Below, piece after piece: positions 32,543 through 43,398 of a stretch of DNA of 64,000 bases. The notes under the pieces were generated by a model. It saw only the letters and a program-made list of their open reading frames with translations, ran no database searches and had not been told where the DNA came from. How positions within the stretch are numbered: the stretch's first letter is position 1; every line of letters starts with the position of its first letter. A program made the position numbers and the translations under genes. The stretch is from Methanocaldococcus infernus ME. GTDB taxonomy: Archaea; AGJL01; Methanococci; Methanococcales; Methanocaldococcaceae. The stretch covers positions 62,001-126,000 of the forward strand of contig NC_014122.1 in NCBI RefSeq assembly GCF_000092305.1, in the 5' to 3' direction.

Positions 32543-33589
32543 ATGAAAATAAAGGTTGGTGTCTTAGGAGCCACTGGAATGGTTGGACAAAGGTTTATTC
32601 AATTTTTAGCTGAGCACCCAATGTTTGAATTAACCACCTTAGCAGCATCAGAGAGAAGTGCAGGGAAGAAGTATAGTGAAGCAACAAATTGGTACTTAGA
32701 TGTTGAGATGCCAGAGAAGGTTAGAGATTTAATAGTTACAACCACTGACCCAAAAAATAAAGAATTTGAGGATGTTGATATTGTTTTCTCAGCTCTACCA
32801 TCAGATTTAGCTAAGAAGTTAGAGCCAGAGTTTGCAAAAGAAGGAAAATTAGTTTTCTCAAATGCTTCAGCTTACAGAATGGAAGAGGATGTTCCTTTAG
32901 TTATTCCAGAGGTTAATGCTGATCACTTAGAGTTAATAGAGATTCAAAGAAAAAAGAGAGGATGGGATGGAGCTATTATAACAAATCCTAACTGTTCAAC
33001 CATCTGTGCAGTTATAACCCTAAAGCCAATAATGGATAAGTTTGGCTTAGAAAGTGTTTTTATAGCAACCTTACAGGCAGTTAGTGGAGCTGGCTATAAT
33101 GGAGTTCCATCCATGGCTATACTTGATAACCTAATCCCATATATTAAGAATGAAGAGGAAAAAATGCAGACTGAGAGTTTAAAACTCTTAGGAACCTTAA
33201 AAGATGGTAAAGTTGAATTTGCCAACTTTAAGTTAAGTGCTTCCTGTAATAGAGTTCCTGTCATAGATGGACATACAGAGTGTATATTTGTAAAAACCAA
33301 AGAAGAGGCTGAGCCAGAGGAAATTAAAGAGGCTATGGACAAGTTTGACCCTTTAAAGGATCTTAACCTACCAACCTATGCTAAACCAATAGTTATTAAA
33401 GAAGAGAGTGACAGACCTCAGCCAAGGTTGGATAGAAATATAGGAAATGGAATGAGTATAGTGGTTGGAAGGATAAGAAAAGACCCTATCTTCACTGTAA
33501 AGTATGTTGCTTTAGAGCATAACACAATAAGAGGAGCTGCAGGAGCAAGTATTTTAAATGCTGAATACTTTGTTAAGAAGTATTTATAA
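32543..33589 (+). CDS. asd: Aspartate-semialdehyde dehydrogenase
   Basis: The 348-aa enzyme reduces aspartyl phosphate with NADPH, feeding lysine, threonine, methionine and archaeal aromatic amino acid synthesis. [14 protein letters not shown] is the nucleotide loop, [10 protein letters not shown] holds the catalytic cysteine, [12 protein letters not shown] is the adjoining loop, and [10 protein letters not shown] holds the catalytic histidine. Archaeal-type length is normal. GAGGTGAGAGG precedes the ATG. Confidence 0.96.
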
Positions 33590-33597
33590 AAAATTTT

Positions 33598-34926
33598 TTA
33601 AACTTTAAATTTACTTGCTGACATGGCTATTTTATCTGATATTTCACTTATTTTCTCTGTAGCTTTTCTAATCTCCTCTATAACCCTATTTTGCTCTTCA
33701 ACACTGGCAGTTAATTCCTCAGCAGTAGCAGCAAACTCCTCTGAGATTGAAGCGACGTCTTGAACATTTCTTAATGCCTGTTCAACATTGTCCCTGGCTT
33801 CTTGTGCATCTCTTTTAATTTCTTCTATAACTTCCATAGCTCTATCAACAGACTCCTTTATCTTTAAGAATGCGCTATTAACCTCATCTATAGCTACAAC
33901 TCCATTATCAACTTCATTCTTTCCAGTTAATCCTAAGTCTATAGTTTTCTCTATAGCTTCACTTATTTCTTCGACCGTCTTATTAATGTCGTCTACAGAC
34001 TTTCCAATCTCTTCGGCTAAGCCTTTAATTTCACTTGCAACTACAGCGAAACCTCTTCCAGCCTCTCCAGCCCTTGCTGCTTCAATAGAAGCGTTTAAAG
34101 CTAATAAACCTGTTTGCTCGGCGATATCTTTAATTAAAGCTGTAATCTCATTAATTTTCTGGCTCTTCTTACCAAGCTCTTCTAACGCTCTTCCTAATTC
34201 ATCAATAACGTTAGCTATTCTTTGCATTGTTTCTATAGCTCTTTCAACTTTTTCTAAACCAACTTTTGAATTCTCTTCAACAATATTTATAGCCTCAACT
34301 CCCTTTAAACTTTCGTTATAAACGTTTTCAGCGATTTTAGTGGTGTCTTCAAGATCTTGGGTTACGTCTTGTAACTTATTAGACTGATCTGTTGCAGCTG
34401 TAGCCACTTGGTTAGCGGCATCAGCGATTTGGTCAGAAGTTTCTTTAGCTTTATCTAACTCTTCTTTGATAATCTTAAGCTCCTCATTTAGAATGATAAC
34501 TTCTTCTTTTAAGCTCCTTATCATATTTGATATATTGTCCAAAGCTCTGTTAATAAGCTTTTGTATATTTACATTATCTAACTTAACACCATTTTGAACT
34601 AAACTTTCATTCATTCTTGCAGTTAAATCTCCATTAGCCACTCTACTCATAACCCTCTCTACGTCCTTTATAATAACCTCCATAACTTTCTGTCTATATT
34701 CAATTTCCTCCTTCTGCTTTCTAAGACTTTCAACCATTTTATTAAAACCATCTACTAAGATTCCTAATTCTCCATCGTATTTACCTTCAATCTTAACATT
34801 AAGGTTTCCACTAAGTATTTCCTCAACTGCACTAACTAAGTCATTTATTAAAACTGTATATTTCCTGGTTACTACAACGGAAACCCCTAATCCAATTAAT
34901 AGCCCTAATATAAAACCAATTATCAC
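33598..34926 (-). CDS. Methyl-accepting chemotaxis protein without an extracellular sensor domain
   Basis: The 442-aa protein has one N-terminal membrane helix (residues about 2-20), no periplasmic loop, HAMP-like segments (about 21-75 and 90-140) and a full cytoplasmic signalling coil. The tip motif [20 protein letters not shown] is canonical, and heptad-rich methylation helices flank it. It can therefore not sense external ligands by itself. It is encoded 24 bases after an ammonium transporter, which may be the sensor. CpG is frequent in both genes, unlike their neighbours. No che genes are in the window. Confidence 0.92.
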
Positions 34927-34950
34927 AGTCCTTCACCACACAATAATTAT

Positions 34951-36231
34951 TTATGATTCTCTATTAGCTAAAGTATCTTCCTCAGGATATGCTGGTAGAT
35001 TATGCTCAACAATATCTAAACCTCTTATTTCAGCTTCTCTTCCAACTCTTAAGCCATTACATAAAAACCCTATAGCTATAGTAACAACATAACCTAAAAC
35101 AATTCCATAAAACGCACAGAAGATAGATCCAATTATTTGACTTAATAGTAAGTCAATATCCGGATTACTAACTATATGCATAACACTATCTGGATCTACT
35201 CCCACCCCTCCTAAGGCTTTCATTCCAAAGATTCCTGCTAAGATAGCCCCTACAATTCCAGCAGTTCCATGAACTGGAACTACTCCACAAACATCATCTA
35301 TTTTTCTATTTTCAAGGAATCTATAAACTATTGGAACCTGTAATCCAGCAATTAACCCTATAATTAAGCCGGCTATTGGGCTAACTATATCTGTTCCAGA
35401 ACAGATAGCTACTAAACCAGCAACAAGACCGTTAGTCATAAAAAGAGGATCTTTTTTAGAGGTTATTAAAGCTCCTATAGCCCCTCCAGCCATAGCTAAG
35501 GTTGTAGTTGCACAGACTAATCCACTAATATCTTTCAGTGCGAGGGCACTCCCTATATTAAACCCATACCATCCAAATGCTAATATAAACGCTCCAAATG
35601 CCGCTAAAGGAATGTTATGCCCTAAAATCGGAATTGGTTTTCCATCTTTAAATCTACCAATTCTTGGACCTAAAGCAGCTATAGCTCCTAAGGCTAAGAA
35701 GCCACCTAAGCCATGAACCACTAAACTACCAGCATAGTCGTGCCATGGAACAATTGAAGCTCCCCATGGGCCAAGATAGACGAAGAGAGGATAGAGTAAG
35801 CCGGTAATAATTATTGAAATAATGACATAAGCGCTAAACTTAATTCTCTCAGCAACTCCTCCTGAGACTATTGTAGCAGCTGTTGCAGCGAAAACTAAAC
35901 CATAAAACCAATTTGCTAATTCAATCCCATTATTTTCTAAAAATGGAGTAGCCTTCACTATCTTGATCCACCAATCTAAAAAATCGGAGGGATTTATTGA
36001 AGAACATAAAATACTCCCAATAAATAACCATGAAACACAACCAATACACCAATCAAACATATTTTTCATTATAACATTAACAGCATTCTTTTTTCTAACT
36101 TGACCACATTCTAACATTGCAAAACCTAACTGCATTATAAAAACTAATGCACCCATCACACAAAGAAAAAATACGTTACCTGCTACTGTTAGTGTATTCA
36201 AAGCTTCAAGTATTGTATTAACATCTCCCAT
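34951..36231 (-). CDS. amt: Ammonium transporter Amt
   Basis: The 426-aa membrane protein has eleven expected helices. The twin pore histidines lie in DYAGSLVVHGLGG and VPVHGTAGIVGA. The LGFAMLECGQVRKKNAVNVI segment, PWG and the C-terminal GLDIVEHNLPAYPEE motif are typical, although VVHGLGG differs from the more common VVHINAG. amt is usually followed by a GlnK gene; here the partner is a chemoreceptor. CpG-containing codons are common, as in the chemoreceptor, so the pair looks like a transferred unit. Confidence 0.93.
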   Translation of the reverse strand: MGDVNTILEALNTLTVAGNVFFLCVMGALVFIMQLGFAMLECGQVRKKNAVNVIMKNMFDWCIGCVSWLFIGSILCSSINPSDFLDWWIKIVKATPFLENNGIELANWFYGLVFAATAATIVSGGVAERIKFSAYVIISIIITGLLYPLFVYLGPWGASIVPWHDYAGSLVVHGLGGFLALGAIAALGPRIGRFKDGKPIPILGHNIPLAAFGAFILAFGWYGFNIGSALALKDISGLVCATTTLAMAGGAIGALITSKKDPLFMTNGLVAGLVAICSGTDIVSPIAGLIIGLIAGLQVPIVYRFLENRKIDDVCGVVPVHGTAGIVGAILAGIFGMKALGGVGVDPDSVMHIVSNPDIDLLLSQIIGSIFCAFYGIVLGYVVTIAIGFLCNGLRVGREAEIRGLDIVEHNLPAYPEEDTLANRES

Positions 36232-36383
36232 TTTTATTATACCCTCCTTAACTTTATCATTAAACTAAAAAATTTGGAGAATATAATTTTTAGTATATGG
36301 TATTAGCCTTATTAATATCAAATTTACTATAAAGACCATATATAAAAATTTTATTAATTTGTTAAAAAATGAGAGAATTTTTT

Positions 36384-37169
36384 TTATAAGCTCTCATAAA
36401 ATCTTTTCATTAAAAGAGCATCTTTTTCTAAAAGAGGGCTTTCACAAATAACCTTTCCCTCAGCACAGAAGTCTTTTAAAGCTCTTAAGGCATCTTTATA
36501 GTTAAAGTTTGACCTTTCTAAGGGCAGATGTCTCTTTTCTCCACCTTTGCCAAACTCTATTCCTGACATGTGAATATGCATGTCCTTAACTCCAACACTC
36601 TCCTCAATCTTCTCCAAGATTCTATAAAAGTCTTCATAACTATTTATTTTCCCATAGCTCCTTGCATACAAGTGGGGGAAGTCTATACAAGGCTTTAAGC
36701 TTAGCTCTGAGCATAAAGTTAAAGTTTCTTCTAAGGTTCCAAATTGAGAAACCCTTCCAGTGGTTTCTGGTCTTAGTGTAATATCAATATTGCGCTCATT
36801 AAAATAGTCTAAAACTTTCTGTAAATTCTCTTTAATATTCTTGTAGCACTCTTCTTTACTTTTATTTAAATAGTAGCCAGGATGAAACACTAAATCTTTC
36901 CCACAGTGTCTAAGAACCTTGGCACTCTTTATTAATCTATAAATACTTCTCTCAATTTTTTCCTTTTCATTGGCATTTAAATTAATATAGTGAGGAGCAT
37001 GAGCTGAAAATTTTAAATCTTTATTCTTCTCCTTTAATATCTTAGCATAGTCCTCTTTCATATAAACTCCATTGACAAACTCAAGCTCTAAGGCATTAAG
37101 ATTTAAGGACTTAAGTAATTCTGAGAACTTAAATTCATCTCCATGACAGGCAGAGCCAAAGATTAGCAA
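36384..37169 (-). CDS. Endonuclease IV-like AP endonuclease/xylose isomerase family TIM-barrel protein
   Basis: The TTG start at 37169 follows GGTGA. The 261-aa protein is closer to endonuclease IV than the copy at 7069: FSAHAPHYINLNA, LVFHPGYY, LRPETTGRVSQFGTLEE, CIDFPHLYAR, DMHIHMSGIEFG and VICESP bear the histidine, glutamate and aspartate metal ligands in Nfo order. It may cut abasic sites, but some methanogen members lack tested activity. It is four bases after the MBL gene and so co-transcribed. Confidence 0.72.
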   Translation of the reverse strand: MLIFGSACHGDEFKFSELLKSLNLNALELEFVNGVYMKEDYAKILKEKNKDLKFSAHAPHYINLNANEKEKIERSIYRLIKSAKVLRHCGKDLVFHPGYYLNKSKEECYKNIKENLQKVLDYFNERNIDITLRPETTGRVSQFGTLEETLTLCSELSLKPCIDFPHLYARSYGKINSYEDFYRILEKIEESVGVKDMHIHMSGIEFGKGGEKRHLPLERSNFNYKDALRALKDFCAEGKVICESPLLEKDALLMKRFYESL

Positions 37170-37173
37170 GAAC

Positions 37174-37965
37174 TCACCTAATTAATATGTTGTTCTTTAA
37201 AAGCTCTATTCTTAAGCCTAACTTTGCTGGAACAACCTTTATATTTGTGTTCTCCTCAATATACTTAGCCTCTTTTAAAGGATTTGTCATCTTAACTCCC
37301 ATATGGTTCATAATTAATAGTTCTGGCTTATTTTCCATAGAATTTATTAGATCAATGACATCATTTGAGCATAAATGTCCCCTAATCTTCTCATTCTTTT
37401 TTCTAACTATATTGGCTATTAAAACCCTAACTCCATCAAAATCTTTAATTAATGAGGGAATAAATTCAGTGTCTGATGTATAGCCAATATCTCCATACTT
37501 GGTTTTCAACCTAAAACCTATCCCAAAGGGATCTCCATGCTTTGTTTTTGTTGCTTTTATTGTTGTGTCATATAATTTAAGCTCATCATTAGGATAGAGA
37601 GCTTTAACCAACTCTAACTTTGACTGATGATACTTAGAGATAACATATTCATATTCTCCAAAACCTTCAACAACTGTTAAAGAGCCTATAAAGATTCCTC
37701 TTTTCCTTGTCATCCCATTAGTTATGGCTTCAACTATAATCTCTCCATCATTGTAATGATCAGGATGACAGTGAGAGATAAATAAAGAGTTGGTTTTCCA
37801 TGGAGAGATCTTTAATTGATTTAGCCTAACAATTGCTCCAGGTCCTGGATCTACATGGAGTTTAAGCTCATCAGTGTGTATTCTAAACCCTCCTGTGGGC
37901 TTCTTTTGTGTAATTGTTGCCCATCTCCCTCCTCCACTGCCTAAGAAGATGATCTCAACATTCAT
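37174..37965 (-). CDS. Metallo-beta-lactamase-fold hydrolase
   Basis: The 263-aa protein begins VEIIFLGSGGGRWATI, then has the SHCHPDHYND metal motif, KHGDPFGIGFR, GYTSDTEF with the bridging aspartate, and MNHMGVK. The overall pattern is like RNase Z/PhnP-type MBL proteins, but without a clear tRNase Z arm. GGAAGG precedes the ATG. It is the first gene of a two-gene unit with the endonuclease IV-like protein. Confidence 0.82.
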   Translation of the reverse strand: MNVEIIFLGSGGGRWATITQKKPTGGFRIHTDELKLHVDPGPGAIVRLNQLKISPWKTNSLFISHCHPDHYNDGEIIVEAITNGMTRKRGIFIGSLTVVEGFGEYEYVISKYHQSKLELVKALYPNDELKLYDTTIKATKTKHGDPFGIGFRLKTKYGDIGYTSDTEFIPSLIKDFDGVRVLIANIVRKKNEKIRGHLCSNDVIDLINSMENKPELLIMNHMGVKMTNPLKEAKYIEENTNIKVVPAKLGLRIELLKNNILIR

Positions 37966-38245
37966 ACTAAAAACCTTCCTTCTGAAAATTTAATAAATAT
38001 TATTAAGCTTTACTAAAGGATTAAAAGTTACTTAAATCTTATTTATAACCTTATAAATTTAGAAACATCTTCACCCTCTGTTATGAACTATAGTTCTAAG
38101 TTCAAAATTTTAATGCTAAAATTTTTTATATAAAAATCAATTTTTTAAGCAAAAAGTAAATATATGAGTTATGTTTGTTATTAGTTCCTAAATATGTAAG
38201 ATAAAGACTACAAAAATTTAAAAAAATAAATATTAAGGTGAAACA
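37966..38245. other. Divergent promoter region between the MBL gene and rpl34e
   Basis: This 280-bp AT-rich gap shows no ORF. It contains a perfect palindrome GAACTATAGTTC (38085-38096), a minus-strand TATA (CTAAATTTATAAGG near 38048-38061) for the MBL gene, and a plus-strand TATA (GTAAATATATG near 38156-38166) for the ribosomal gene. AAGGTGAAAC precedes the rpl34e ATG. Confidence 0.5.
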
Positions 38246-38515
38246 ATGCCAGCACCAAGATACAGATCAAGGTCATACAGAAGGGTTTATAAGAGAACAC
38301 CGGGAGGAAGGTTAGTTATACACTACAAGAGAAAGAAGCCAGGAAAGCCAAAGTGTGCAGTTTGTGGAGCTGAGTTACATGGAGTTCCAAGAGGTAGGCC
38401 AGTGGAGATAAGAAAGTTGGCTAAAACAGACAGAAGGCCTGAAAGGCCTTATGGAGGCTACCTCTGTCCAAGATGTTTAAAGAGGTTAATGATTGAGAAG
38501 GCAAGAAACTTATAA
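38246..38515 (+). CDS. rpl34e: Large ribosomal subunit protein eL34 (L34e)
   Basis: The 89-aa basic protein starts [21 protein letters not shown], in outline, and has a zinc-ribbon [16 protein letters not shown] ... [18 protein letters not shown]. It binds 23S rRNA. It heads the conserved archaeal cluster rpl34e-cmk-rpl14e. GGTGA lies six bases before the ATG. Confidence 0.96.
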
Positions 38516-38527
38516 AAAGTGTTCATC

Positions 38528-39070
38528 ATGATCATAACCATTGGTGGCCTTCCTGGAACTGGAACCACTACTATAGCTAAGAAGATAGCTGAGAAATACA
38601 ACTTAAGATATGTCTGTGCAGGCTTAATTTTTAGAGAGATGGCAAAAGAGAAGGGAATGAGTGTTGAAGAATTTAGTAAGTATGCTGAAAAAAATAAGGA
38701 TGTTGATAAAGAGATTGATAAGAGACAGGTTGAGCTTGCTAAGGAGGGAAATATAGTTTTAGAGGGAAGATTGGCTGCATGGATGCTATTGAAGAATAAT
38801 ATTAAGCCAACCCTCTCTATATGGTTTAAGGCTCCTATAGAAGTTAGAGCTAAAAGAATAGCTGAGAGAGAAAAGATTAGTTATGAAGAAGCTTTAAAAA
38901 ACATGACACTTAGGGAAGAGAGTGAGAAAAAGAGATATAAGGAGATATATGATATAGACTTAGATAACCTTTTTATATATGATCTTATTATTGACACTTC
39001 AAAGTGGGATATTGGGGGAGTGTTTAATATTGTCTCAACAGCTATAGACAACCTAAAGGGGCAATATTAG
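38528..39070 (+). CDS. cmk: Cytidylate kinase
   Basis: The 180-aa kinase phosphorylates CMP and dCMP with ATP. The P-loop is [17 protein letters not shown], followed by the CMP-binding region ([17 protein letters not shown] in outline) and the R-x2-R lid. ATG at 38528 is preferred to the in-frame GTG at 38519 since archaeal Cmk begins MIITIGG. The gene is part of the rpl34e-cmk-rpl14e cluster, 12 bases downstream of rpl34e. Confidence 0.93.
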
Positions 39071-39071
39071 G

Positions 39072-39136
39072 CCTCCCTCATTTTGTAAGGATGAATTGTG
39101 ATTCGCGAGAATCACAATAACAAAAATGAGGTGAGG
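39072..39136 (+). promoter_or_regulatory. Two-stem RNA hairpin covering the rpl14e Shine-Dalgarno
   Basis: The gap between cmk and rpl14e forms an upper stem ATTGTGATTC/GAATCACAAT (10 perfect pairs, 39095-39104 with 39109-39118) capped by a GCGA tetraloop of the GNRA class. A lower stem pairs CCTCCCTCATTTTGT (39072-39086) with ACAAAAATGAGGTGAGG (39120-39136), with one bulged A and one bulged T. The asymmetric internal loop is AAGGATGA against A. The lower stem contains the whole Shine-Dalgarno, so it should limit translation unless opened. Confidence 0.75.
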
Positions 39137-39139
39137 TTT

Positions 39140-39379
39140 TTGGCTGCTATAGAAGTAGGAAGAGTTTGCATAAAAACAGCTGGAAGAGAAGCAGGAAAAG
39201 TTTGTGTTATTGTAGATGTCTTAGACAAAAACTTTGTAGTTGTTGATGGCTTTGTTAAGAGAAGAAGATGTAATATAAAACACTTAGAGCCTACTGAGAA
39301 GAAAGTAGAGATTGAAAAAGGAGCTTCAACTGAGCAAGTTAGACAAGCCTTAGAAGAGGCTGGCTTTACAGAAGAATAA
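39140..39379 (+). CDS. rpl14e: Large ribosomal subunit protein eL14 (L14e)
   Basis: The true start is TTG 39140, giving LAAIEVGRVCIKTAGREAG as the N-terminus (79 aa) with GAGGTGAGG at 39129-39136. A frame from GTG 39098 would read through the hairpin and add 14 unlikely residues. The KOW-like core GREAGKVCVIVDVLDKNFVVVDG and RRRCNIKHLEPT are typical of L14e. Confidence 0.94.
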   Translation: MAAIEVGRVCIKTAGREAGKVCVIVDVLDKNFVVVDGFVKRRRCNIKHLEPTEKKVEIEKGASTEQVRQALEEAGFTEE

Positions 39380-39385
39380 AAGTTT

Positions 39386-40819
39386 TTGGTGGTAGAATTA
39401 AGATTCTATGAATATATAACTAATTTTTTAGAGGAGAGAGTTAGAACTCTCTTTTCCTATCCTGGGGAGCAAATATATAAGTTGTTTGAAGAGATTAACA
39501 ATAGTAAAATAAAAAATATTGTTGCTGCTGATGAAAGAGGAGCTGGCTTTATGGCAGATGGCTATGCCAGAATCTCTAACTATTTTTCTGTCTGCTTAGC
39601 CACTGCTGGACCAGGGGGATGTAATTTAACAACTCCCTTAGCTACAGCTTATAAAGATAGCTCAAGTGTCTTAGCCATAACTGGAAGGCCAACAAGGAAG
39701 TATATAGGAGAAAACTATTTTCAAGAATTAAATTTAGATTTTTTAAACTTTCACAAGGGCTTTTTTGTTAATGAACCAAAAACCTCTTACTTGGAGAAAA
39801 GTTTATCACTGTTGGAGTATAAAAAGCCTGTACATCTAAATATCCCCTCAGATGTTTTAGAAGAAGAGGTTTGTGAAGTTCAATATACTGAGGAGAGGGA
39901 AGAGAGAGAATTTAAAGAAGTTGAAGGAGATCTCTTATTAGTTGGTCAGGGGATATATGGAACTCTAACTTATAAAGAAATTCTAAAAATAAATAAACTC
40001 TTATCTAAATTTCCTGTTGCTACCACCTTTCCAGCAAGAGGGGTAGTAAAAGAGGAAGAAAATATAGGTTTAGTTGGAAGGAGAGGAGATATAGAGAGCT
40101 TAAAGAAAGCTAAGAAAATTATAAATTTAGGAGCATCATTATCATATAATACTTATGTGGAAAGTTTAAGAGAAGAGCTATTAAAGAAAACTATTAACTT
40201 AGACATTCAAAGAATAAACTACAGTGAGCTAAAAAATTTAATTAAAAATTTAAATATAGATTTTAGTTATGATATTAAAAAAAGAACTTTTAAAGCTAAA
40301 GGGGATTACTCAAGGAAGGTTGAAGCTTTAATAAACAACTTGCCAGAAGATTCTATATTAGTTTTAGATGCTGGGAAGCATACAGTCTTCACCTCTTTAC
40401 TGAAAACCTGTAATATTCCTAAGAGTATAATAGCTTCCCACTCCTTTGGCTGTATGGGCTTCTCTCTTCCAGGGAGTATAGGGGTTAAATTTGCCACAGA
40501 AGACTTTAAGATAGATAGAGAAGTTGTTTCTATCTCTGGAGATGGAGGCTTTATAATGAACATTCAGGAGTTAAAAGTAGTTTCTCAGCATAACTTAAAA
40601 ATTCTTTTTGTTGTCTTTGAAAATAATAAGTTGGCTAACTTTTGTAGGATAGAGAATCCTGATTTTATCAAAATTGCTGAAGCCTTTGGAATAGAAGGAT
40701 ACAGAGTAGAGAGCTTAGAAGAGATTGAAGATTATGTTAAAGACTATTTAAAGGGAAATAAGCCCTTAATCTTGTCTATAAAAGTTGAAGATGAAGATTT
40801 ACCAAAACCAAACACATAG
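39386..40819 (+). CDS. Thiamine diphosphate-dependent enzyme, acetolactate synthase-like (MJ0663 type)
   Basis: The 477-aa protein has three TPP-enzyme domains: N-terminal pyrimidine-binding (FSYPGEQIYKLFEE, VAADERGAGFMADGYAR with the catalytic glutamate), a central domain, and a C-terminal TPP-binding domain (VSISGDGGFIMNIQEL ... ENNKLA). It is shorter than acetolactate synthase and lacks the full FAD domain, so the reaction is unknown. Starts are TTG 39386 or GTG 39389; neither has a clear site. It follows rpl14e by six bases. Confidence 0.75.
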   Translation: MVVELRFYEYITNFLEERVRTLFSYPGEQIYKLFEEINNSKIKNIVAADERGAGFMADGYARISNYFSVCLATAGPGGCNLTTPLATAYKDSSSVLAITGRPTRKYIGENYFQELNLDFLNFHKGFFVNEPKTSYLEKSLSLLEYKKPVHLNIPSDVLEEEVCEVQYTEEREEREFKEVEGDLLLVGQGIYGTLTYKEILKINKLLSKFPVATTFPARGVVKEEENIGLVGRRGDIESLKKAKKIINLGASLSYNTYVESLREELLKKTINLDIQRINYSELKNLIKNLNIDFSYDIKKRTFKAKGDYSRKVEALINNLPEDSILVLDAGKHTVFTSLLKTCNIPKSIIASHSFGCMGFSLPGSIGVKFATEDFKIDREVVSISGDGGFIMNIQELKVVSQHNLKILFVVFENNKLANFCRIENPDFIKIAEAFGIEGYRVESLEEIEDYVKDYLKGNKPLILSIKVEDEDLPKPNT

Positions 40820-40833
40820 AGAGGGGATAAAGG

Positions 40834-41691
40834 ATGATAGATGAGTTCTTTACAGAAATATGCAAGGATTTACATTTTAATGCTACAAAACTTACCAATG
40901 AAGAGTTTGGTCAAAATTGGAAGGTTCCAGAGGGGTTTATATCAATCATTGGCTTGGAAAATGCTAAGTTTCCAGTCTTCTACTATGGAATTACTGAAAG
41001 CTCTAAAAAAGAATACTTTATAAAGAAAGAGAAGGGGCAAATCTTTGTTAGGCTAAGGTTTAAGTTTGATAGAAAAGACTTGATAGAGAAGGAAAAGTAT
41101 GTTGTAGCCAACGCCTTCAATGGCTTACTCCTATTAATTTATATAGATAAGGATGAATTTATTAGAGAGAGTTCTAAAGTCTTAAAAGAGCTTTATGAGA
41201 AAGATGAAGAGGTTAGAAAATATATAGAGAACTTAAAAGAGAGGAACATGTTTGAAAGTGTAACTGAAACTATAGGGTTTATAGCCAATAGGGATTATAA
41301 CTGGCTAATTGGTAGGATAAAATATAACTTAGGAAACATGAGATACTCTGGGGAAGGCTATTATTTAATTCCACTAAAAACCAAGTTAGAGATAACTCCT
41401 GGCTTAGAGACTGAGGATAACTACTTAATAATAGACTTAGAAAATGCTCACCTATTCAGAAACTTTATTATCTATCTTGATAAAGTAAGGGGTCAGGTGA
41501 TATACAATAAAGAGAGGCTCTGTAATAAGAAGCCAGCTATTATTAATGTGAAGGTAGATGAAAACCACTGTCCTTGGTGTGGGGCTAAGTTAAGGGTTGT
41601 AAAGACTAAGAAAGGAGAATTCTTAGGCTGTACTAACTATCCTCAGTGCTTATATAGAAGATTCCCTAAGAAAGGTGTAGATCTTGGTTAA
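40834..41691 (+). CDS. Uncharacterised protein with C-terminal topoisomerase-type zinc ribbon
   Basis: The 285-aa protein is not recognised. Residues 1-230 look like a mixed alpha/beta domain without known motifs. Residues about 242-278 form CPWCGAKLRVVKTKKGEF and GCTNYPQCLYRR, the four-cysteine zinc finger found at the C-terminus of type IA topoisomerases and in some nucleases. That suggests DNA or RNA binding. It overlaps cbiL by eight bases. Confidence 0.6.
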   Translation: MIDEFFTEICKDLHFNATKLTNEEFGQNWKVPEGFISIIGLENAKFPVFYYGITESSKKEYFIKKEKGQIFVRLRFKFDRKDLIEKEKYVVANAFNGLLLLIYIDKDEFIRESSKVLKELYEKDEEVRKYIENLKERNMFESVTETIGFIANRDYNWLIGRIKYNLGNMRYSGEGYYLIPLKTKLEITPGLETEDNYLIIDLENAHLFRNFIIYLDKVRGQVIYNKERLCNKKPAIINVKVDENHCPWCGAKLRVVKTKKGEFLGCTNYPQCLYRRFPKKGVDLG

Positions 41692-42361
41692 AAAGGTTTA
41701 TGGTGTTGGGATAGGGATAGGTGGAGAGAGCTTAACCTTAAAAGCTTTAAATATCTTAAAAAAGGTTGACAAAATCTTTATCCCAATTTCTAAGAGAGGG
41801 AAAAGCTCTGTGGCTTATGAGTTAATAAAAGAATATATAAAAGATAAGAAGGTTGAAGAACTCTTATTTCCTATGAGTAAGGATAAGGATGAGTTAAAAA
41901 AGTGCTGGGAAGAGAATCTTAAAAAAATACTAAGTGAAGAGGGAGAGGTAGCTTTAATAACCCTTGGAGATCCAACTCTATATAGTACTTTTTCATACAT
42001 GTGGAAAAGCTTAAGAGAGAAAGGGGTTGAGGTTGAAATTGTTTCTGGCATCTCCTCCATCTTTGCAGCTGCTTCCCTATTAAACATCTCCTTAGCTGAA
42101 GGAGAGGAGAAGGTTTGTATCCTTCCACAGGGAAAGGATTTAGATAAATACTTAGATGACTTTGACACTATCATAGTGATGAAAACCAAGAATTTAGAGA
42201 ATATATTGAAAGGCTTAGATAGAGATGACTTAACTATCTACTTAGCCAAAAGGTTGGGCTTGGAAGATGAGAAAATAACTTTTGGCTCTCCAAGGGAAAT
42301 TAACTTCAATGAGTTCAATGACTACCTATCCTTAGCTATCATTAAAAAGGAGAGAAGATGA
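41684..42361 (+). CDS. cbiL: Precorrin-2/cobalt-factor II C20-methyltransferase
   Basis: The 225-aa protein is a tetrapyrrole methylase: YGVGIGIGGESLTLKAL at the N-terminus, VALITLGDPTLYST (the GDP motif) and VSGISSIFAAASLL. CbiL adds the C-20 methyl group in anaerobic cobalamin synthesis. TTG 41684 is the start, with GGTGTAG before it. Elsewhere in the window cobN, chlI/chlD and a cobZ-like gene add further steps of cobamide synthesis. Its last bases overlap the next gene's ATG. Confidence 0.88.
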   Translation: MVKKVYGVGIGIGGESLTLKALNILKKVDKIFIPISKRGKSSVAYELIKEYIKDKKVEELLFPMSKDKDELKKCWEENLKKILSEEGEVALITLGDPTLYSTFSYMWKSLREKGVEVEIVSGISSIFAAASLLNISLAEGEEKVCILPQGKDLDKYLDDFDTIIVMKTKNLENILKGLDRDDLTIYLAKRLGLEDEKITFGSPREINFNEFNDYLSLAIIKKERR

Positions 42362-43398
42362 ATATTATAAGAGAGGTTCCAGAGAGCTTTTTAAATGGAT
42401 TCTATTTGATGCCAACAGATAGGGAAAATATTAAAGAAGGAGGAGAATTTTATTTTATAAATAGAATTCCTATTTTAAGGGTTCATTTTACTCCAAATTT
42501 AAAGAAAAATATAAAAAAGATAGTCTACCTTATAAGGGACAAATACTCTTTTTCCAAGCCAATAAGTGGATGGTTAAGTAATTTATTTAACTACATAAAA
42601 GAGAAAAAATCTTTAAGAAAGCATTATAGAGCTAAAAAAGCTTGGTTTAGAGCAATAGGAGACTTGTTTAAAGATATTGAAAACTGGGAGTTCAGGAAGG
42701 TTATAAATAAAGTAATGTCTTTATTAAGGTCAATTAATCCTATCTTAGTTATAGAGCTTCATGATATTAGTAAGTGGCATCATGGAACCTCTACCATCAA
42801 ATTTATAAAAGAGCTCTACAAAAGAGGAATCTCTATAGTTTTAAGATATCCTCAGGAGTGCCATAACCATATAAAGAAAATATTCCGTGAAGGTAGGTTA
42901 AATATTAAAGGAGCCATTAAATACTTTGCAAGGAAGCTAAATTATTATATTTCTGATAGTGTAGCAGAATATTTAAGTAAGATAAGCCAGGGAAATTTAG
43001 AGGTTGTATATCTAATACTAAAGTGTTGTAAAAGAACTCTAAGAAGTGCAAGGGAAATAAAGATTCCTTGGCTAAAGATACTCCCATATATAGTTGATTC
43101 GAAATATCGAAAGTTCGTTGAGTTAGCTATAGAGTTAAGATCTTTTACTATTGAAGACATTTATTTAAGGCTAAATTATAAGTTACCAACAGTTTATAGA
43201 TATCTTGATGACTTAGCTAAGATGGGAATTTTAAAAAAGATTAAAGCAAGGAAAAAAATTAGGTTTAAATTAAAGTTGAAGAAAGAGAAGCTTATCTCTC
43301 TTCTGGAGAATTATAGATTTAAAAAACCATGGTTAAGTATTTATCTTCTTGATTCTATCCCAGTATTAAAATCTTTCGAGTTTTCGAGTTGCATATAA
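42358..43398 (+). CDS. Divergent Orc1/Cdc6-like origin-associated protein (degenerate ATPase with winged helix)
   Basis: The 346-aa protein has no P-loop, but INPILVIELHDISKW resembles a Walker B strand, GISIVLRYPQE a sensor-1 strand, and ISDSVAEYLSKISQGNLEVVYLILK an AAA+ lid. Residues about 250-310 are a winged helix (IEDIYLRLNYKLPTVYRYLDDLAKMGILKK). Position beside cbiL matches M. jannaschii, where MJ0774 next to the predicted origin was proposed as a diverged Cdc6. Its last codons (SFEFSSCI) are the first origin repeat. Initiator function is inferred. Confidence 0.62.
   Translation: MNIIREVPESFLNGFYLMPTDRENIKEGGEFYFINRIPILRVHFTPNLKKNIKKIVYLIRDKYSFSKPISGWLSNLFNYIKEKKSLRKHYRAKKAWFRAIGDLFKDIENWEFRKVINKVMSLLRSINPILVIELHDISKWHHGTSTIKFIKELYKRGISIVLRYPQECHNHIKKIFREGRLNIKGAIKYFARKLNYYISDSVAEYLSKISQGNLEVVYLILKCCKRTLRSAREIKIPWLKILPYIVDSKYRKFVELAIELRSFTIEDIYLRLNYKLPTVYRYLDDLAKMGILKKIKARKKIRFKLKLKKEKLISLLENYRFKKPWLSIYLLDSIPVLKSFEFSSCI
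43374..43398 (+). repeat. Origin repeat copy A
   Basis: TTTCGAGTTTTCGAGTTGCA followed by TATAA; it overlaps the 3' end of the Orc1/Cdc6-like gene and encodes its final residues. It matches copies B and C over 24 bases. Each copy holds the heptamer TTTCGAG twice in tandem, as an eight-base step. Confidence 0.85.

Follow-up and report, generated by a model that had tools for sequence, protein, structure and literature searches.

A glnK-less amt gene followed by a sensorless chemoreceptor gene in Methanocaldococcus infernus: a possible split ammonium sensor

The window is the whole stretch of 64,000 nucleotides that was analysed, positions 62001-126000 of the complete 1,328,194-bp genome of Methanocaldococcus infernus ME; positions below are those of the window unless stated otherwise. 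On its minus strand a gene of an Amt ammonium transporter is followed directly by a gene of a methyl-accepting chemotaxis protein (MCP):

36339-36346, minus strand: TATA-box-like element TTTATATA, upstream of amt
34951-36231, minus strand: amt, 426 aa, the third and glnK-less Amt of the genome
34927-34950, minus strand: amt-mcp spacer
33598-34926, minus strand: mcp, a sensorless methyl-accepting chemotaxis protein, 442 aa, GTG start

The spacer is exactly 24 bp long, as the preliminary description had it, and holds the GGTGA ribosome site of mcp at 34937-34933 (minus strand). The asd gene (32543-33589), downstream of mcp, runs on the opposite strand, so the unit consists of two genes. The TATA-like box at 36339-36346 is likely its promoter. 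In none of 19 relatives does asd, MBL, amt or mcp lie within 1.5 kb of the conserved TIM-barrel gene, hence the empty site is not definable.

The Amt matches PF00909 at 361 bits and TIGR00836 at 371 bits, above the curated cut-off of Pfam and NCBIfam. The pore residues, read from the alignment with Ks-Amt5, are intact: the Phe gate (F114 and F224), the filter (W156 and S228) and the His pair (H173 and H321). In the tree of 28 Amts only this protein has a long end branch; its length is 0.38, about five times the median of 0.077. It carries 12 private substitutions at columns that are invariant in 16 relatives. With the topology assigned by hydropathy in this analysis, 10 of the 12 fall into the cytoplasmic half, which is a weak clustering (hypergeometric P=0.04); the two next most changed Amts are free of such a bias (P = 0.80 and 0.45). 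Three regions of the protein differ from or resemble its relatives in a particular way:

35686-35865, minus strand: Amt residues 123-182, a tract whose DNA matches the genome's own glnK-linked amt at 98-100% identity, including a 152-nt exact match
35125-35226, minus strand: Amt extracellular loop 10 (residues 336-369), which exceeds that of each of the 16 close Amts compared by about 14 residues
34954-35064, minus strand: Amt C-terminal tail (residues 390-426), where RVGREAEIRGLDIVEHN replaces RVSEEEExxGLDxxEHK, plus a short extension

Within the tail, the alignment of close Amts has GREAE in the window protein where the others have SEEEE. The dN/dS of the window Amt against its own glnK-linked paralogue is 0.31, and two between-species comparisons give roughly 0.06-0.10 with dS saturated. 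The 152-nt exact match indicates recent gene conversion between the two paralogues. The tree places the window Amt, on its long branch, beside the Amt of locus L090, whereas low dS and the exact DNA tracts link it instead to its own paralogue. As conversion blurs both the tree position and the dS ties, they settle no age for the amt duplication. The window Amt is a fast-evolving duplicate with the pore kept and the cytoplasmic face and C-tail altered. The acceleration could equally reflect relaxed constraint.

The genome holds three amt genes, and the other two each adjoin a P-II gene (glnK). Beside the window amt no glnK was found, and mcp indeed stands in its place, as had been proposed. In relatives, glnK is present at nearly all amt loci with intact flanks. 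The genome encodes NrpR; in M. maripaludis, the NrpR consensus GGAAN6TTCC is found in front of glnK-amtB (PMC2723118). An exact operator precedes both other amt genes, at -45 and -69, and neither an exact nor a one-mismatch site occurs near the amt-mcp unit, from 35643 to 42295. The window Amt is therefore devoid of both marks of the GlnK-regulated AmtB of Methanococcales, a glnK gene alongside and the NrpR operator. Among the 27 other (glnK-linked) Amt units of relatives, 17 have the exact operator and about 10 have none in the scanned stretch; it is typical, not universal, and its absence alone at amt-mcp is not unusual. Elsewhere in the genome, a nitrogenase-like cluster (NifH/D/K-like ORFs by reading) lies together with two P-II genes of the NifI type (L023:2263-6730), a gene set predicted to be of the diazotroph type.

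The receptor scores 126 bits with PF00015 and 40.5 bits with HAMP. Its parts are as follows:

34867-34923, minus strand: single TM helix (residues 2-20), followed by TRK and preceded by no positive charge, i.e. N-out, C-in
34720-34848, minus strand: HAMP domain (residues 27-69), by Pfam
34501-34683, minus strand: second HAMP-like segment (about residues 82-142), from alignments of 12 and 42 receptors; Pfam makes no second HAMP call
34573-34602, minus strand: insertion of 6-7 residues (about 109-118) in the second HAMP-like segment
33745-34209, minus strand: signalling domain (residues 240-394), by Pfam

A receptor with one membrane helix and no outer domain had been described here, and this is borne out: Pfam calls no sensor domain, and the open frame of mcp spans 444 codons from stop to stop and opens 2 codons before the start, so that no N-terminal sensor domain is hidden in it. 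In the order, no shorter membrane-bound MCP was seen. It has neither TM1 nor the extracellular Cache sensor between TM1 and TM2. Two overlapping matches to the methylation-type motif [ASTG]2-x2-[EQ]2-x2-[ASTG]2 lie at residues 392-408.

The origin of this receptor can be traced within the genome. Its TM helix and first HAMP domain are closest to those of the 754-aa Cache receptor of the same genome (21/50 in HAMP), and the insertion is found in 2 of 42 receptors of the order, namely in these two only. Since the insertion is shared uniquely, the 754-aa protein is the only plausible parent. The short MCP thus appears to be a partial duplicate in which TM2, HAMP and hairpin remain, whereas TM1 and the sensor were lost. 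At the tip of the hairpin (residues 231-340), the protein agrees with three further receptors of the genome at 109 of 110 residues; dS is 0.10-0.16 in this part and at least 0.8 elsewhere in these receptors. The hairpin tips of the window MCP and the MCPs of loci L019, L020 and L021 share 97-98% DNA identity, and their flanks are strongly diverged. This points to gene conversion that keeps the tips alike, and the conversion suggests that the short MCP has been kept compatible with the shared receptor array. Outside the converted tracts, both amt and mcp have a dN far lower than dS.

The amt and mcp frames are the same, with the stops TAA (34953-34951) and TGA (34935-34933) between them. We considered a read-through fusion and rejected it, given these two stops and a topology that bars a short linker. 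The Amt C-terminus lies inside and the MCP helix starts outside, so a direct short fusion would be unworkable despite the common frame. The split form may thus be imposed by the topology, as the N-terminus of a TM-HAMP transducer lies outside.

A search for chemotaxis genes in the genome, called for by the preliminary description, gave a near-complete set, so that the first objection named there, a genome lacking such genes, does not hold. CheW-CheB-CheA and CheD genes are present, and so are a CheF-CheY-CheC cluster and the archaellum genes, with archaellins and an ArlB-J cluster (ArlD/E, H, I, J genes). CheF is the link between the Che system of archaea and their archaellum (PMC2666748). A second, divergent CheF-like gene (43 bits; L183:16308-17024) lies about 12 kb from the CheF-CheY-CheC cluster.

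The genome carries six MCP genes. One of them encodes a soluble sensorless MCP, and the gene of an ODP di-iron sensor (PF19583, 240 bits; PDB 6qnm, 6qrq) overlaps it by 4 bp (genome about 41510-43044; L018:3511-5045). In each of the 8 relatives examined, the two genes are likewise neighbours. By this gene pair, the genome evidently already uses a sensor protein that is separate from its sensorless MCP. Another membrane MCP has a C-terminal rhodanese domain (PF00581; genome about 1220086-1221780, L022:7087-8781) and groups in the tree with receptors of comparable length (560-564 aa) and sequence from two other genomes of the genus. A two-TM, short-loop MCP of 489 aa lies 180 bp upstream of cbiM on the same strand (about 422114-425527; L020:6115-9528), in a neighbourhood with cbiM, a small gene in the cbiN place and cbiQ of a cobalt/nickel transporter. 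We rejected it as a sign of recurrent transporter-MCP pairing: similar receptors in relatives adjoin cheF or cheD, and the adjacency to cbiM thus looks like the result of a rearrangement.

The distribution of the amt-mcp pair was surveyed in 36 genomes of the order, which are also the whole phylum set, with 56 Amt and 71 MCP matches. The genes lie side by side for 1 of the 56 Amt genes, in the window's genome only. None of the other 35 genomes has such a pair, the next nearest Amt-MCP distance in the survey is 13.8 kb, and an adjacent MCP occurs at 0 of 80 further Amt loci in a second genome collection. The search for amt-MCP neighbours in relatives, also proposed earlier, has therefore brought no second example, and a conserved amt-mcp operon is rejected. 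Relatives with the receptor gene apart from amt, named beforehand as an argument against a joint role, are seen in the weak sense that none has an amt-linked MCP; a clear orthologue of the short MCP was not found in them. With the linkage confined to one genome, co-evolution or co-variation is not demonstrable. The open-access literature searched yielded no Amt-MCP pair.

An amt with an MCP gene immediately downstream in the same orientation is expected by chance 0.006 times in this genome; for the 20 surveyed genomes with both gene types together, the figure is 0.04. The adjacency by itself is suggestive: uncommon, not impossible. It is insufficient for a joint function, which we favour because this locus combines an Amt that lost glnK and changed in a biased way with a receptor that lost its sensor.

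Several known systems resemble the pair in part; of these, Ks-Amt5, BceAB-BceS with Pst-PhoR, and the ODP pair of this genome serve as precedents for a split sensor. The ODP di-iron sensor with its soluble sensorless MCP (PF19583) is known from Treponema denticola. Here too a separate sensor protein is encoded next to a sensorless MCP; however, the ODP-MCP system is soluble, answers to an oxygen or iron signal and is conserved across the order, whereas amt-mcp is membrane-bound and occurs in one genome. The sensory rhodopsins of haloarchaea pair with the transducers HtrI and HtrII, which have two TM helices, the partner being a 7-TM retinal protein. They share with amt-mcp a polytopic protein of transporter type beside an MCP without a ligand domain, with the signal passing through the membrane. 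Unlike Htr with its two TM helices and 7-TM partner, the window MCP has a single TM helix, and its putative partner is a trimer of an 11-TM Amt. In BceAB-BceS and PstSCAB-PhoR a transporter drives a membrane kinase, and PhoR, like the window MCP, has no canonical outer sensor domain (PMC6978683). Those are ABC transporters with a transcriptional output, unlike the Amt of the window, which is of the channel type and stands beside a chemotaxis receptor.

The closest comparison is Ks-Amt5 of Kuenenia stuttgartiensis, a sensor in which an Amt is fused to a histidine kinase and glnK is absent nearby (PMC5764959). In a comparison with PDB chains, Ks-Amt5 ranks with those nearest to the window Amt, and the two share the family, the absence of a neighbouring glnK and the kept pore residues. 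Ks-Amt5 is one polypeptide with its kinase, whereas the window encodes two proteins and its output is an MCP with HAMP; amt and mcp are separate ORFs, not a single chain of Amt plus output domain. The path of Ks-Amt5 is blocked by bulky F27/Y30/F34, in place of which the window Amt has F37/L40/Q44, like its glnK-linked paralogue. The two-cation site Q24 E31 N47 D50 T51 T109 T112 corresponds to Q34 E41 N57 D60 W61 T120 S123 in the window protein, which thus has most of its residues. We rejected this site as a sensor marker since its residues are equally present in glnK-linked Amts. The ranking of PDB chains, with signal-transducing Amts ahead of E. coli AmtB, was likewise rejected as evidence, since both glnK-linked Amts rank alike.

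Hence, we suggest with moderate confidence that amt-mcp is a split ammonium sensor, made of a transporter and a transducer, which arose recently in a single lineage and would be the two-protein counterpart of Ks-Amt5. In its more specific form, which we put forward tentatively, the Amt would be the sensing subunit for the single-helix, sensorless MCP, and the two would constitute a split ammonium-taxis receptor built recently in one lineage. The starting points are the gene order, the domains, the pathway genes, the absence of glnK and operator, the acceleration of the Amt and the truncation of the receptor; from these we infer the physical contact of Amt and MCP, the direction of the signal, ammonium as the stimulus and taxis as the output. 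The use of the transporter as a sensor, the core of the preliminary description, is in line with the chemotaxis and archaellum genes, the missing glnK and operator, the accelerated Amt, changed mostly on its cytoplasmic side, and the truncated Cache receptor, and is weakened by the lack of the linkage in the 35 other genomes.

The history and the working of the proposed system may be outlined in the following way. A duplicated AmtB-type transporter would have lost its glnK partner and nitrogen control, with changes in its cytoplasmic face and C-tail. A partial duplicate of the Cache receptor, with TM2, HAMP and hairpin, would have been placed directly behind amt. Binding of ammonium to the Amt trimer, or its passage through it, would cause a movement of helices and C-tail. 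This movement would be transmitted to the receptor dimer via contacts in the membrane and at HAMP. The receptor dimer would change the activity of CheA, and CheY-P together with CheF would carry the signal to the archaellum.

The strongest alternative, in our view somewhat unlikely, is that the two genes are co-expressed but form no sensing complex. In that case the sensorless MCP would work through the shared mixed array, with the operon setting its dose together with that of Amt, and would be a helper or a sensor of energy, pH or membrane state by means of its TM helix and HAMP. The hairpin tip, identical to that of its array mates, agrees with this, as does the commonness in the order of two-TM sensorless receptors by cheD or cheF, which need no transporter; another such receptor of this genome lies near cbiM, apparently after a rearrangement. 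However, those receptors are che-linked and have two TM helices, whereas the window MCP has one helix and is Cache-derived, and it stands 24 bp behind an Amt that is without glnK and nitrogen control.

We regard it as quite unlikely that chance brought the two genes together, the Amt being redundant and under relaxed constraint and the receptor a truncated fragment, with no joint function. Intact frames of both genes, a ribosome site and an upstream TATA box speak against this, and all pore residues of the Amt are kept. The excess of dS over dN in both genes outside the converted tracts also speaks against it, as does the coincidence at one locus of two independent losses, of glnK and of the sensor domain. 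The confinement of the pair to a single genome, the expectation of 0.04 over the survey, the long Amt branch and the activity of partial duplication and gene conversion in both the Amt and the MCP families are what one would see under chance. That the signal runs in reverse, with the MCP instead of GlnK acting at the membrane as the regulator of Amt transport, is highly improbable: mcp does lie where glnK would in the operon, and the altered residues of the Amt are on the cytoplasmic side, on which GlnK docks (PMC8395244), but the MCP has no effector site like that of PII, and a plug for Amt would not need a whole CheA/CheW-binding hairpin identical to those of working receptors.

The split-sensor reading would have consequences beyond this locus. 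To date, the bacterial Amt sensors under study have been fusions in one chain, and a split pair would show the coupling of a transporter to the chemotaxis array. Few ligands of archaeal receptors are known, and, if the reading is true, the ligand of this one could be predicted. The locus would moreover record how a receptor is born, with a sensor domain lost and a transporter recruited.
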